Positions 1 to 53,436 of a DNA stretch of 64,000 nucleotides are shown here, one piece after another; within the stretch, counting starts at the first letter, position 1; the number at the start of each line of letters is the position of its first letter. The stretch is taken from contig CANJLD010000003.1 of NCBI GenBank assembly GCA_947475165.1, positions 186,001 to 250,000 on the forward strand, written 5' to 3'. The stretch is from Bacteroidota bacterium (GTDB lineage: Bacteria; Bacteroidota; Bacteroidia; Chitinophagales; LD1). Below the pieces are notes generated by a model. That model ran no database searches, was not told the origin of the DNA, and saw nothing but the letters and a program-made list of their open reading frames with translations. A program made the position numbers and the translations under genes.

Positions 1-394
1 GGCGGGCATCAAACACCACCACCTCGCTGATTGGCGTAGTGCTGTGCGAAGGCACAGCACGGCCTATTTTAAAGTTAAAAACCGCCTCATCTGCTTCCAC
101 TGCACCAGGGCTTGCAGCCATAATGTTCAGTAGCGGCTGAGCGAAGGTTTTAAAATCTTTCATAAAATTTTTAACCGCCTCTTTTACCGCAGCAGTGCTT
201 TGCAGCGGGTCGCTGTATTTAGGGTAAAGGGTACCTACCCAATAGGTTTTCTTGTCTTCCCAATCGGTAATGTTGGTTGGGCTAAGCCCCAGGCGCGCAC
301 CGTTGGTAGTAGGGGTGCCTGCGGCTACATAAGTGCCGGTGTTGGTGATGTAGGTATTGAAACCTGGAATGGATGTTGATATTCTTGTAGGCAT
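1..394 (-). CDS. Uncharacterised Bacteroidota family protein, C-terminal part beyond window
   Basis: The reading frame is open from an ATG at 394 to the left edge of the window, so about 131 N-terminal residues are visible and the 3' end is missing. The protein begins MPTRISTSIPGFNTYI and shows no signal peptide and no domain I can name. The middle (LGLSPTNITDW, then a helix-rich stretch with KNFMKDFKTFAQPLL) resembles in layout the protein at 23312-23980: an N-terminal segment, a short Leu-x-x-Pro/Ser...Ile/Val-x-Asp motif, a variable loop, then a basic amphipathic helix. I take the two to be distant members of one family known to me only as hypothetical proteins in Bacteroidota. A 21-bp tandem array lies 62 bp upstream of the start. 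Function unknown; that it is coding is likely, because the frame is open and composition is protein-like. Confidence 0.7.
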   Translation of the reverse strand, partial: MPTRISTSIPGFNTYITNTGTYVAAGTPTTNGARLGLSPTNITDWEDKKTYWVGTLYPKYSDPLQSTAAVKEAVKNFMKDFKTFAQPLLNIMAASPGAVEADEAVFNFKIGRAVPSHSTTPISEVVVFDAR

Positions 395-455: not shown

Positions 456-665
456 GGCAACTTATTTCCGTGAGGAACTAAGTTGTTTCCTGAAGGACGA
501 AGATTATCTCCTGCAGGAACTAAATTGTTTCCTGAAGGACGGAACTTATTTCCGCGAGGAACTAAGTTATTTCCTGATGGACGGAACTTGCTTCCGTTAG
601 GAACTAACTTGTTTCCGTGAGGACGAAGGTTAGTTCCGCGAGGCAGAACTTCTCTGCCCCTTGCT
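456..665. repeat. 21-bp tandem array 1 (nine clear units plus one decayed)
   Basis: Units start at 456, 477, 498, 519, 540, 561, 582, 603 and 624, each exactly 21 bp, with a decayed tenth at 645. Eight of nine contain the inverted motif TCC-N4-GGA at the same place. Units alternate between those beginning ACTAA and those beginning CGAAG or CGGAA, so there is also a 42-bp dimer period. On the minus strand the array stays open and would encode heptapeptides of the form (V/R)PxGNx(L/F), within an open frame 413-754. I treat it as a repeat array first and as possible protein second, because the equivalent arrays elsewhere in the window contain stops. It ends 62 bp upstream of the minus-strand gene starting at 394. 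Confidence 0.9.
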
Positions 666-994: not shown

Positions 995-1246
995 TCAATC
1001 TTTCTTAGGCGTGTAACTGCCTTTACTGTCAAAGCCGTTAGCGTGTCCCCAGTTAATAAACTCGGTAATTTTTCCCACACCTGTTTTTAAAAAGACGTAG
1101 CGCATGTGGGTGTTCAAAGTTTCATCGGGCATGTTCAGGGCTTTAGCCATTTCCTTGCGCGATATACCGGTCATGGCAACTTTCATTACTTCAAACTGGC
1201 GCATGCCAAAATTAATGCCGCCAATCAGGATGGTTTTCTCTTCCAT
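995..1246 (-). CDS. Small LuxR/GerE-type HTH regulator
   Basis: An 83-residue protein that is essentially a single DNA-binding domain. Residues about 18-70 (FEVMKVAMTGISRKEMAKAL, then DETLNTHMRYVFLKTGV) match the GerE helix-turn-helix pattern: a hydrophobic first helix, the G-x-S-x-x-E-x-A turn, and the T-x-x-x-H recognition helix. There is no receiver or sensor domain, so any signal must come through a partner or through the short N-terminus. ATG at 1246 is the only good start. A candidate promoter lies just upstream (1269-1300). The gene is isolated, between a REP-like palindrome downstream and atpD in the opposite direction. It is one of two small DNA-binding proteins in this window that sit close to a 21-bp array. 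Target genes unknown. Confidence 0.75.
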   Translation of the reverse strand: MEEKTILIGGINFGMRQFEVMKVAMTGISRKEMAKALNMPDETLNTHMRYVFLKTGVGKITEFINWGHANGFDSKGSYTPKKD

Positions 1247-3028: not shown

Positions 3029-3094
3029 AATGGCGAGTGGTAAGTAGTAAAAACTACGATGCTAACCACTCGCCACTAACCACTCGCCACTAAC
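3029..3094. repeat. Hairpin and 14-bp tandem repeat between atpD and atpC
   Basis: TAACCACTCGCCAC occurs twice in direct tandem (3063-3076 and 3077-3090), and an inverted copy (GGCGAGTGGT, 3032-3041) pairs with ACCACTCGCC at 3065-3074 or 3079-3088. The atpD-atpC spacer can therefore form two alternative 10-bp stems. It has no T-tract, so it is not an obvious terminator; it may affect processing or the atpD/atpC expression ratio. Confidence 0.75.
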
Positions 3095-22580: not shown

Positions 22581-22940
22581 ATGACACTTCTATATCTCAT
22601 TCTTGTAAGCGGTATAATAGGCGCGGCTATGGGGGCAACGGTTTTCTTTTCCAAAGAAGAACCCTATAAAATTGAAATTATAGTGGCTTCGGCACTGAGG
22701 AATATTTTAGTGGGTTTGTTAATCATGTTTACTGTTTTTGGCTTATACCTCTTTACTACACCAACACTTCTTAGTTTAGTAGGCTTTGGTGCGCTGTATG
22801 GTTTCCTTTCCACGCTGGTGGTTTTCATATCAAAGGGACGCGATAAGTTTATTTCGCATCTGCCTATGCTTGCGCTCGGAACGGTTGCCGGTGTTCTTAC
22901 CGGTTTGGCGTGTTATGTTATGGAGGCAATCTTAAAATAA
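22581..22940 (+). CDS. Small integral membrane protein, unknown
   Basis: 119 residues with four hydrophobic segments (about 3-22, 40-60, 66-85 and 95-115) separated by short charged loops (FSKEEPYKIE, SKGRDKF). No signature I recognise. ATG at 22581, own hairpin terminator downstream at 22976-22994, and the sucD terminator upstream, so it is an independent unit. The real-gene call rests on the membrane-protein pattern and the flanking terminators. Confidence 0.7.
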   Translation: MTLLYLILVSGIIGAAMGATVFFSKEEPYKIEIIVASALRNILVGLLIMFTVFGLYLFTTPTLLSLVGFGALYGFLSTLVVFISKGRDKFISHLPMLALGTVAGVLTGLACYVMEAILK

Positions 22941-22994: not shown

Positions 22995-23024
22995 CTATTC
23001 CCTCCCCTGCCTATACGCCAAACC

Positions 23025-23049
23025 CCGAAAGGATTCCGACCCCTTTCGG
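23025..23049. repeat. CCGAAAGG hairpin, copy 1
   Basis: CCGAAAGG (23025-23032) pairs with CCTTTCGG (23042-23049). A closely similar hairpin is at 63777-63801. Both sit in gene-free gaps; this one is just left of the second 21-bp array. Confidence 0.6.
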
Positions 23050-23061
23050 CATTCTTCCTGC

Positions 23062-23229
23062 AACTTCTGAATAACTATTCAGATTTTCGGAATGCTTATT
23101 CAGGTTTTAAGAGTGCTTATTCTGAACTTAAGAATAACTATTTCTAATTTTAGAATAAGCATTGTAATTTTCAGAATACTTATTCCTGTTTTCTGAATGC
23201 TTATTCAGAAGTTCTTGGAGCAATATTTT
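23062..23229. repeat. 21-bp tandem array 2 (seven clear units plus one decayed)
   Basis: Units start at 23062, 23083, 23104, 23125, 23146, 23167 and 23188, exactly 21 bp each; a decayed eighth starts at 23209. Four units have the perfect inverted motif GAAT-N4-ATTC and the other three differ from it by one base. Units 1 and 4, 2 and 6, and 3 and 7 are most alike. One forward frame reads as heptapeptides of the type xFxNAYS but contains stops, so the array is not translated as a whole. It ends 83-104 bp before the start codon at 23312, with a good promoter in between. Confidence 0.92.
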
Positions 23230-23242
23230 CTTTAAAAAGAGC

Positions 23243-23273
23243 TTTGTTTTCTCCAAAAGCCTGTTTATTTTAG
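23243..23273 (+). promoter_or_regulatory. Candidate promoter downstream of array 2
   Basis: TTTG at 23243-23246, a 19-bp spacer and TATTTTAG at 23266-23273, one mismatch from TAnnTTTG. It lies between the 21-bp array and the ATG at 23312, so the array sits where an activator or repressor would bind. Confidence 0.55.
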
Positions 23274-23311
23274 CAGTAAGCTTTATAGTTTAACCATAAA
23301 ACAGAACACCT

Positions 23312-23980
23312 ATGGCAAAAGATTATATCCCTCGCGGTAAAAACGAATTCTTTACCTTTCAGCAAGCCTTAGTCACCACCATAACCAACTATGCCGCAGC
23401 CTGGAACCTTCCTGCTGCCGATGTCAGCGACCTTTCCGATGCCTCTGCGGAGTATGCTACGCTGTATACTATAACCGGTAACAAAAAGCATTGCACCGCC
23501 ACGCAGCGCGAGGAACACAATAAATTCCGCACGGCATACGAAAAGCAAATCCGCAAATTTGTGAACCGGTTTCTGCGCGATAATCCCGATACCAATGCCG
23601 CTGTGCTGCACAGCGCAGGTATTAGGCAAATGGGTAAATTAAGAAGGTCGCGCGCGGCTATTACGGTGGGGGTAGACCTGAGCGGCAAGGCCATGGAAGG
23701 TTGCCGCGTTAAGTTTTCTTGCTGCATTCCTCACCACGATGGCGGGGCCAGCCTGCACCCCGAAGCCGATGCGGTGGAAATTCGCTATTCGCTCGACAAA
23801 AGACCGGCACATGCCGAGGAGTGCCCGCACAGCATCATCATTAAAAAGGCACATCCGGTTTTAGAGTTTGATTACGCCATGCTTGGCAAGTATGTTTATG
23901 CTTTTGCCCGTTGGGTAAATCTGAGCAAGGCAAACCACTCCGGTCAATATGGTAATATGTTTACGGTTATGCTACATTAA
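23312..23980 (+). CDS. Uncharacterised Bacteroidota family protein (array-associated)
   Basis: 222 residues, start MAKDYIPRGKNEFFTFQQAL. No signal peptide. The N-terminal half is mostly helical and resembles a family of hypothetical proteins I associate with Bacteroidota (IPxxxxEFxxWQ...-type start, AAAWNLPAADVSDL, then AYEKQIRKFVNRFLRDNP). The C-terminal half is beta-like with an unusual density of His and Cys (VKFSCCIPHHDGG, PAHAEECPHSI), ending ARWVNLSKANHSGQYGNMFTV. This part could bind metal, but no canonical motif is seen. The partial gene at 1-394 seems a distant relative, and both are preceded by a 21-bp array. Function unknown. Confidence 0.8.
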   Translation: MAKDYIPRGKNEFFTFQQALVTTITNYAAAWNLPAADVSDLSDASAEYATLYTITGNKKHCTATQREEHNKFRTAYEKQIRKFVNRFLRDNPDTNAAVLHSAGIRQMGKLRRSRAAITVGVDLSGKAMEGCRVKFSCCIPHHDGGASLHPEADAVEIRYSLDKRPAHAEECPHSIIIKKAHPVLEFDYAMLGKYVYAFARWVNLSKANHSGQYGNMFTVMLH

Positions 23981-41392: not shown

Positions 41393-41824
41393 TTATTTCT
41401 TCATTGCCAGCCTTTCAAGAATTTCGAGCTGTGCCTTTAGCCGTATGTTTTCTTCGGCTGTTTGCCTTGTTTGTTTCAGATGCTCTTTCAGCTCTTCGTT
41501 TTCCGTTTTTAGTGCATTATTTTCTTCTTGTAGCGGATTGGCAACCGGTGGAACGTTAGGATGATAACGCAGTAGCAGGTTTTCCTGCAACACCTCACTT
41601 ACTTTCAACAACTTTTTCATACTCATAATTTTCGCCTTAAAAAGCCGGTTAATGTTTCGGTTGGTAATAGATAATGCCCTGCTAAGGTCATCGTTAGCAA
41701 TTCTTTTTTCAACGGCTATTTTCTTAATCTCAAACCCTATCGAAAAGGGACTGTATGAATACTTTGAGCTGGGGTCAACTTTAGGCAAAGTTGATGGGTG
41801 CGTTTTTTTTTCCGGTCGTGCCAT
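41393..41824 (-). CDS. XRE-like regulator with C-terminal coiled coil
   Basis: 143 residues. About 28-80 is a Cro/C1-type helix-turn-helix (IKKIAVEKRIANDDLSRALS, then ITNRNINRLFKAKIMSMKKL), and 95-143 is a leucine-rich coiled coil (EENNALKTENEELKEHLKQT, LKAQLEILERLAMKK) that should make a dimer. The N-terminus is basic and Pro-rich. The family name is not known to me; such HTH plus zipper proteins are found in Bacteroidota. Directly upstream begins the third 21-bp array, so autoregulation through the array is an obvious hypothesis. Confidence 0.75.
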   Translation of the reverse strand: MARPEKKTHPSTLPKVDPSSKYSYSPFSIGFEIKKIAVEKRIANDDLSRALSITNRNINRLFKAKIMSMKKLLKVSEVLQENLLLRYHPNVPPVANPLQEENNALKTENEELKEHLKQTRQTAEENIRLKAQLEILERLAMKK

Positions 41825-53065: not shown

Positions 53066-53430
53066 GGGCCTGATTGGAATTGACGGGAAGCCTTGGAGGT
53101 AAACCCGCGTGCCGTGGGTGTTTGATACCACGATAATCCATCCTACAAACAATTTTAACTGGCGAATATTCATACGCCATGGCTGCTTAATCCTTAGGAT
53201 TAACCACCATTTGCCCTGCGCTTAAGGTACCATACACAGCGCACTGGCAACCAAAAATTGGTAACGTACTCGTAAAGCATCATCTACTTTGCGATGTATG
53301 AACGACAGATGTAAGAAACAAGTTGGAGGGTTGCTTATGCGGCTTGTTTACGAAAATCAATAAGTAACTACGCATGTAGAAAGTCTATCGTCAACTTATC
53401 CGGACGTGGGTTCGATCCCCACCAGGTCCA
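53066..53430 (+). ncRNA. ssrA: Transfer-messenger RNA (tmRNA)
   Basis: The 5' end GGGCCTG (53066-53072) pairs with CAGGTCC (53423-53429), giving the tRNA-like acceptor stem with discriminator A at 53430; CCA is not encoded. The T arm is GTGGGTTCGATCCCCAC (53406-53422). GATTGGAATTGACGGGAAGC near the start is the conserved D-arm side. The tag reading frame begins at GGC 53161 and reads GEYSYAMAA, then TAA at 53188-53190, close to the Bacteroides tag GETNYALAA as I recall it. tmRNA with SmpB frees stalled ribosomes and marks the peptide for proteolysis. Confidence 0.95.
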
Positions 53431-53436
53431 CTTTTT

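Follow-up and report, generated by a model that had tools for sequence, protein, structure and literature searches.

The DNA considered here (hereafter the window) is a stretch of 64,000 nucleotides from a Bacteroidota bacterium, part of contig C3 (255,855 bases) in a 3.88-Mb genome. At 23065..23211 on its plus strand, in the vicinity of succinyl-CoA-ligase-like and ATP-synthase-like genes of the contig, lies an array of seven 21-bp units (array 2, pattern TTnnGAATnnnnATTCnnnnn, located by its period-21 score), and downstream of it a gene for a 222-aa protein with an N-terminal helical and a C-terminal Fn3 domain (23312..23980, plus strand). A second array of the same class (array 1, 21/42-bp period, minus strand, 459..648, or about 457-648) lies upstream of a paralogous gene near the window edge.

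Array 2, its gene and the other features of the window

Each unit of array 2 (counted from the TT preceding GAAT, hence 23065 to 23211) carries the inverted motif GAAT-N4-ATTC at constant phase, as the original prediction had it. Sites 1 (GAAT-AACT-ATTC, 23069..23080), 2 (GAAT-GCTT-ATTC, 23090..23101), 6 (GAAT-ACTT-ATTC, 23174..23185) and 7 (GAAT-GCTT-ATTC, 23195..23206) are perfect, and sites 3 (GAGT-GCTT-ATTC, 23111..23122), 4 (GAAT-AACT-ATTT, 23132..23143) and 5 (GAAT-AAGC-ATTG, 23153..23164) have one mismatch each; these dyads, given without strand, thus make four perfect and three imperfect sites between 23069 and 23206, in steps of exactly 21 bp. The single motif is not rare in the window (49 matches with at most one mismatch, 32.5 expected), so that the striking part is the regular spacing; perfect matches number five in all, four of them in array 2. 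Array 2 reaches a period-21 score of 56, whereas 300 first-order shuffles (periods 12-60) average 10.1 and do not exceed 16.0; the score continues weakly as far as 23302. Scores of at least 24 (periods 12-99) occur at only two places in the window, array 1 and, from 23062/23065 on, array 2, both at multiples of 21. When positions 23000-23300 were used as query in a DNA search of the genome, the place of array 2 alone was matched; since the array is self-complementary, this match appears on both strands.

Between array and gene, a possible Bacteroidota-type promoter, TTTG-N19-TATTTTAG, had been proposed at 23243..23273 (plus strand). The sequence is indeed there, with one mismatch, but matches of this type are not above chance in the window (five, 14.5 expected); in the orthologous locus of a relative (L009) the TATTTTAG part is retained and the TTTG lost. 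We regard this promoter as plausible from its sequence.

The product of the 23312 gene matched no Pfam family (0 families), its best sequence match among solved structures had an E-value of 0.052, and PADLOC gave no family for it, nor for the four relatives and second-family members tried (the second family is described below). A structure model based on a four-sequence alignment (pLDDT 86.7, pTM 0.56) has three long helices (residues 10-27, 35-56 and 63-88) followed by a C-terminal beta sandwich. Residues 114-222 have the Fn3 fold (Z 11.6, rmsd 2.2 over 94 residues; best Foldseek E-value, also to Fn3, 3.2e-5). The N-terminal helical part, modelled alone (pLDDT 88.0), found no clear relative with Foldseek (best E-value 1.7), and its best hit in a fold search (Z 8.2, rmsd 3.0 over 97 residues) is in the range common for helical bundles, absence from a fold list being no proof. 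A synteny test of insertion, made with the neighbouring gene at 22581-22937, matched nothing in 16 congeneric genomes.

The paralogous gene behind array 1 encodes 242 aa in all, of which the 5' part occupies 1..393 (minus strand) and the rest runs past the window edge. A gene likewise on the minus strand, at 995..1246 and upstream of array 1, encodes a small stand-alone HTH protein of the GerE/LuxR type (83 aa; PADLOC matches in the HTH region are weak), so that this region forms a complete HTH - array - gene module (995-1246, 459-648, 1-393). Array 2, whose neighbours were checked, is without an adjacent HTH gene. Two small HTH proteins of the window had been put forward as its binders, and neither kept this role: the GerE-type protein at 995-1246, by its position on the strand of array 1 and upstream of it, is a candidate for array 1, and the gene at 41393-41824 (143 aa, with a weak Cro/C1-type HTH match below the Pfam cut-off) has no 21-bp array nearby. 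The refuting test that came with that proposal, "nuclear extract", is inapplicable, since the source is a bacterium.

Two further features of the window were observed, a perfect 14-bp tandem repeat CTAACCACTCGCCA in 2.4 copies at 3062-3094 and a tmRNA gene at 53066-53433 (Rfam RF00023, 107 bits). This gene is the only Rfam match of the whole window at the gathering threshold.

A gene family with private arrays upstream

A protein search of the organism's own genome with the 23312 product found five further places (weakest E-value 0.14), and a profile search added a sixth (C13); the paralogs lie on four other contigs. In this genome the first six family genes are each immediately preceded by an array of 21 or 42 bp, all with different sequences, and the C13 place has one likewise. 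Since the gene behind array 1 is a family member, both arrays of the window obey one rule. Family profiles found members in 8 of 60 closest-relative genomes, 22 of 298 genomes of the order and 7 of 395 of the phylum (each count including the own genome), which indicates a patchy distribution.

Among 102 scorable family genes (own genome, Chitinophagales relatives and others), 83 have a 21-, 42- or 63-bp array within 700 bp upstream, and in a downstream control of equal length, starting inside the gene, an array at a multiple of 21 was found in none of 102. The nominal Fisher p-value of 1e-38 is not to be taken literally, the loci being related. Other periods reached the threshold in 11 of 102 cases upstream (mostly beside a 21-bp array) and in one of 102 downstream; 19 of the 102 loci are without an array at a multiple of 21, and outside the order 12 of 18 loci have one. 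The loci fetched are part of the matches from the relative, order and phylum searches; L042, L046, L112, L113 and L114 were unscored (partial hits or almost no upstream sequence), L083, L096 and L109 were dropped with less than 150 bp upstream, and repeat fetches of one gene were counted once.

Some members of the family depart from the common pattern: L076 (G221:C34) has a 22/44-bp array instead of a 21-bp one, and L081, L082 and L094 have an extra 14-, 12- or 16-bp periodicity upstream of the gene. A paralog in the same genome (L004/L038, G000:C28:3814-4476) is interrupted by an internal stop codon, which may point to decay of some modules. With a distant relative (L053) as single query, no match was obtained in 72,556 plasmid records or among phages. 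In viral contigs 71 stretches fitted a pattern, and none of them was confirmed. K-mer counts upstream of the arrays gave A/T-rich words only and no other common motif.

The anatomy of the arrays was analysed in a list of 68. Left out by hand were L048 and L051 (hits inside the gene, with the array further upstream) and L076, L098, L100, L101, L103, L105, L106 and L110 (no clear 21-bp array); in the remaining omitted loci no period of 21 or 42 bp reached a score of 24 within 620 bp. With a null in which the unit columns are permuted, so that periodicity is kept and symmetry destroyed, units are dyad-symmetric in 58 of the 68 arrays at p<=0.05 (mean z 3.1; array 2 p 0.020, its ortholog L009 p 0.050). 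Mean symmetry by distance from an even axis is highest at 2.5-5.5 bp (0.59-0.66), falls to 0.37 at 0.5 bp and is lowest at 10.5 bp (0.22); the peak thus reproduces the design of half-sites around an N4 centre noted earlier for arrays 1 and 2. Around the private half-sites, 67 arrays have a frame in common, with T at -7.5 and -8.5 (z 5.3 and 6.0) and A at -1.5 (z 4.0). Of 619 spacings between sites, 610 are multiples of 21, a figure partly built in, as the arrays were picked by period 21 and only the searched 80-bp flanks are unbiased; there are no shifts of one base either way, and the exceptions are five 14-bp steps, at L081 alone, and steps of 61, 62, 83 and 127. L043, a near-copy of L032, was excluded from the shared-frame and site-spacing analyses.

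What the arrays have in common is thus period and design. The original prediction had already remarked that arrays 1 and 2 share the 21-bp period and differ in consensus, and this turns out to be the rule across the class. Mean similarity between arrays is 0.36 where the proteins are less than 40% identical, 0.37 at 40-50% and 0.40 at 50-70%, for a background median of 0.36, and reaches 0.56 in the two pairs above 70%. For L023 (array 1) and L016, with proteins 57% identical, array similarity is close to background (0.39); between array 2 (L003) and its ortholog L009, with proteins 54% identical, it is 0.49, and GAAT-N4-ATTC is kept in both. Over the 13 units of this last pair conservation amounts to 94% in the half-site columns, 69% in the N4 spacer and 61% in the linker, which is, judged from the sequences, the footprint expected of a binding site. 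The arrays look as though each gene copy owned a private switch.

Units that are alike inside an array and near background between arrays (proteins below 50% identity) are also what slippage would leave behind, and the arrays could in principle be neutral, functionless minisatellites. We consider this very improbable, given the single dominant period, the near absence of indels, the dyad symmetry, the half-site conserved against a variable linker between species and the association with gene families.

Double-stranded DNA, RNA or peptide

Palindromic units upstream of a gene may be read at the level of DNA or of a transcript. Across the dyad of the 68 arrays, G.T mispairs are observed 1224 times for 1538 expected (0.80) and A.C mispairs 1391 times for 1751 (0.79), the G.T ratio exceeding the A.C ratio in 38 of 68 arrays. 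The two halves match at 0.537 within a unit and at 0.535 at a distance of 42 bp (difference 0.002, s.e. 0.005, all arrays), and within-unit covariation at p<=0.05 is found in 5 of 66 arrays. Equal depletion of G.T and A.C, together with halves that vary independently, fits dimer sites on double-stranded DNA better than RNA hairpins. Array 2 and L009, on the other hand, have a weak within-unit covariation (p 0.042 and 0.030, true units) and rank second and first, respectively, among the 68 arrays for within-unit pairing excess; this runs counter to the operator reading developed below, and a hairpin or cruciform would fit it.

There is also a hint of transcription through some arrays. A boxA-like element, GTTCWTTRA, precedes 9 of the 68 arrays on the gene strand (L015, L018, L024 and L025, for example) and occurs in none of three control sets, the motif having been chosen post hoc, after examples had been inspected; it may indicate that some arrays are transcribed. 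The assembly was searched for SSU rRNA, with its native boxA in view, and none was found.

It could thus be argued that the array acts as transcribed RNA, either as a repeat-rich leader or as an RNA bound by the downstream product, comparable to that of type III toxin-antitoxin systems, with boxA-like antitermination; the location upstream of a gene, the boxA-like elements and the weak covariation of array 2 and L009 all go in this direction. We nevertheless find this rather unlikely: no preference for G.U over A.C and no covariation over all arrays were seen, so that mispair types and covariation gave an RNA-structure reading no support, Rfam recognised nothing in the window besides the tmRNA, and the 23312 product is a helical and Fn3 protein. 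ToxIN and other type III toxin-antitoxin loci likewise have a private repeat array directly upstream of a gene, but its unit is about 36 nt, whereas the arrays described here have 21-bp units, a symmetry of the double-stranded DNA type over all arrays and an Fn3-domain product. As to a ToxN-type endoribonuclease, PADLOC assigned the 23312 product to no family.

As 21 is divisible by 3, the arrays might alternatively encode peptides of seven-residue repeats. At least one sense frame is open in 43 of 67 arrays, and stops in the best frame are somewhat rarer than in column shuffles (mean 0.72 against 1.06). However, every sense frame contains a stop in the other 24, array 2 and its ortholog included, the codon-position pattern of variation is absent (z -0.15, s.e. 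0.12), and the palindromy would be left without explanation. We rejected this reading for array 2 and L009, which are closed in all sense frames, and hold it scarcely credible for the class: the 24 closed arrays are non-coding, and it is unlikely that the 43 others, taken individually, code.

Small HTH proteins, the operator reading and what it would mean

If the arrays are bound by dimers of a protein, its gene may be sought next to them. A small DNA-binding gene is recognisable upstream of 11 of the 68 first-family arrays: of the GerE type above the Pfam cut-off at L022, L023 (array 1) and L037, just below it at L017 and by profile comparison at L013, L024 and L038 (probability 92%, E-value 6.4e-7); of the XRE type above the cut-off at L030 and L045 and below it at L070; and of the LytTR type at L012. 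Counted as DNA-binding Pfam domains (25 families listed for each side), there are 9 in 89 upstream and 3 in 43 downstream ORFs, an unconvincing difference; the nine include a swap by hand of the longest ORF at L023 (2544-2909) for the HTH gene at 995-1246, without which the count is 8 of 89.

The reverse test is more telling. A profile of seven GerE-type proteins (A12), searched in 14 genomes, gave 64 matches, of which seven are the profile rows themselves; the test covered 24 small and 32 longer frames, leaving aside one of 132 aa (G016:C40). An array at a multiple of 21 lies near 15 of the 24 small LuxR/GerE-type frames (74-125 aa, outside the profile, flanks of about 1.5 kb; L162 and L180, both without an array, are neighbours in one stretch) and near one of the 32 longer LuxR-type frames of at least 140 aa (nominal Fisher 1e-6). 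No first-family member could be recognised in any of the 24 stretches. The array is downstream of the HTH gene in 13 of the 15, nine times at up to 350 bp and four times at 0.6-1.2 kb (L143, L145, L169 and L178), and HTH - array - gene is the commonest order of the module; at L176 and L181 (G017) the order is reversed, the array lying upstream of the small GerE-type HTH gene, which stands between it and the next gene. The sole exception among the longer frames, L191 (G000:C7:161910-162083), consists of a 287-aa LuxR-type frame, then an array of 42-bp period, then an orphan gene of 311 aa. Counting L191 with the 15, the HTH-linked arrays at other genes have a significant dyad in 8 of 16 cases and none significant in the other 8.

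The genes behind two of these arrays, L168 and L169, define a second family, without detectable homology to the first (profile comparison probability 0.4%) and present in 14 of the 298 genomes of the order. Of 37 matches, 30 had their loci taken, and 29 were scored, L223 being too short. An upstream array at a multiple of 21 is found in 19 of the 29 loci (17 of 27 minus two model rows), and 15 of the 19 are palindromic. A GerE-like HTH gene lies upstream in only 3 of the 29. The downstream control gives an array in 5 of 29, more than in the first family, perhaps because modules are clustered.

The arrays of the class have two-fold symmetric sites at constant helical phase, as an operator array of a dimeric regulator does, and for array 2 we give about an even chance to the hypothesis that it is a cis-regulatory element, a cooperative, helically phased operator for a dimeric regulator private to the locus. 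As 21 bp make two turns of B-DNA, the seven two-fold sites would lie on one face of the helix, where they would be occupied, next to one another and cooperatively, by dimers of a single sequence-specific DNA-binding protein, and the filled array would set the transcription of the 23312 gene. Each locus would have its own recognition sequence and part of the loci their own small HTH protein next door, array 2 being probably served by a non-adjacent or diverged regulator of the same small-HTH kind. The geometry proposed in the original prediction has held up in the 21-bp phase, the dyads, the double-strand type of symmetry and the association with small HTH genes across the class; we infer binding, cooperativity, the direction of regulation and a distant or diverged regulator of array 2 from these features. 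This reading is slightly weakened by the hand-picked ORF in the upstream Pfam count and by the rarity of HTH genes in the second family. Also against it count the lack of an HTH gene next to array 2, the small share of first-family arrays with a recognisable DNA-binding gene (11 of 68), the downstream arrays of the second family (5 of 29), the HTH-linked arrays with no significant dyad (8 of 16), the weak covariation of array 2 and L009 and the boxA-like elements.

Those same observations leave some room for the family protein itself, which might bind its own private array and autoregulate in the manner of iterons, the HTH genes being separate additions: the arrays are found most often with the family gene (83 of 102 genes), with a small DNA-binding gene upstream in 11 of 68. 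We find it unlikely, since such arrays also precede the non-homologous second family and other HTH-linked genes, and the N-terminal part is modelled as bundled long helices, in which no DNA-binding fold was recognised (this excludes nothing).

The hypothesis of a locus-private operator can also be set against known systems. LuxR/NarL-type and XRE-type dimeric regulators use multi-site cooperative operators with inverted half-sites on one helix face, and often, though not by definition, have the regulator gene next to them. The arrays resemble these operators in their inverted half-sites, their single face and the small HTH gene near part of the loci, and differ from them by at least seven tandem sites, the exact 21-bp spacing and a sequence private to the locus. 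Iterons, tandem direct repeats of about 20 bp before plasmid rep genes and private to each replicon, had been offered as the other possibility; the arrays are likewise tandem repeats of about 20 bp before a gene and private to the locus, but we found no Rep domain, the arrays are chromosomal, with several per genome, and their units are palindromic, so that this part of the proposal was not borne out.

Tandem repeats whose size is constant and whose sequence varies were reportedly treated for bacteria by Subirana and Messeguer in J Bacteriol in 2020. According to the available text of their article on Bacillus (Subirana and Messeguer, PMC8161180), repeats of 20-21 and 52 nt have a constant size and a variable sequence, form species-specific families and are of unknown function; those of 20-21 nt are mostly non-coding, with several families of unrelated sequence per genome, and their length is remarked to be two turns of DNA, and the 52-nt repeats often contain a characteristic short sequence and its reverse within one repeat. 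The arrays resemble the 20-21-nt repeats in their constant unit length (83 of 102 at multiples of 21), in the lack of mutual sequence conservation and, for array 2, in being non-coding; unlike them, they are exactly 21 bp, in Bacteroidota and upstream of defined gene families. Partner gene families, dyad-symmetric 21-bp units and a link to HTH genes are reported here and not in the available text of that article (PMC8161180). We take array 2 to be a member of this kind of repeat in a new setting.

Nucleoid stabilisation is one explanation offered there for the Bacillus repeats (PMC8161180), and with constant size and variable sequence in both cases, the arrays could by analogy be anchor or centromere-like sites of a nucleoid protein, any regulation of the neighbouring gene being incidental. 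This we hold quite improbable, as an anchor would not need a position upstream of particular gene families, and private sequences speak against one common sequence-specific binder.

In the open-licence literature we did not find a module of HTH gene, 21-bp array and orphan gene, and only the work of Subirana and Messeguer is pertinent. Going beyond array 2, one may propose, somewhat short of an even chance, that Bacteroidota hold many orthogonal modules, each made of a small, fast-diverging DNA-binding protein (GerE, XRE or LytTR), a private 21-bp dyad array and an orphan protein (helical and Fn3 in the family modelled here), with the specificity of the regulator and the array turning over together within a genus. 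If true, this joint turnover would give several mutually insulated switches per genome, and the satellites of 20-21 nt in other phyla might be further cases of it. Repeats of constant size and variable sequence are termed enigmatic in the available text on Bacillus, with no named partner gene (PMC8161180), whereas the arrays described here have gene families as partners, a symmetry within the unit and candidate binders. Should each neighbouring HTH protein bind its own array alone, these genomes would contain many small, natural, orthogonal pairs of regulator and operator, of use both for studies of how specificity evolves and as parts for synthetic circuits.
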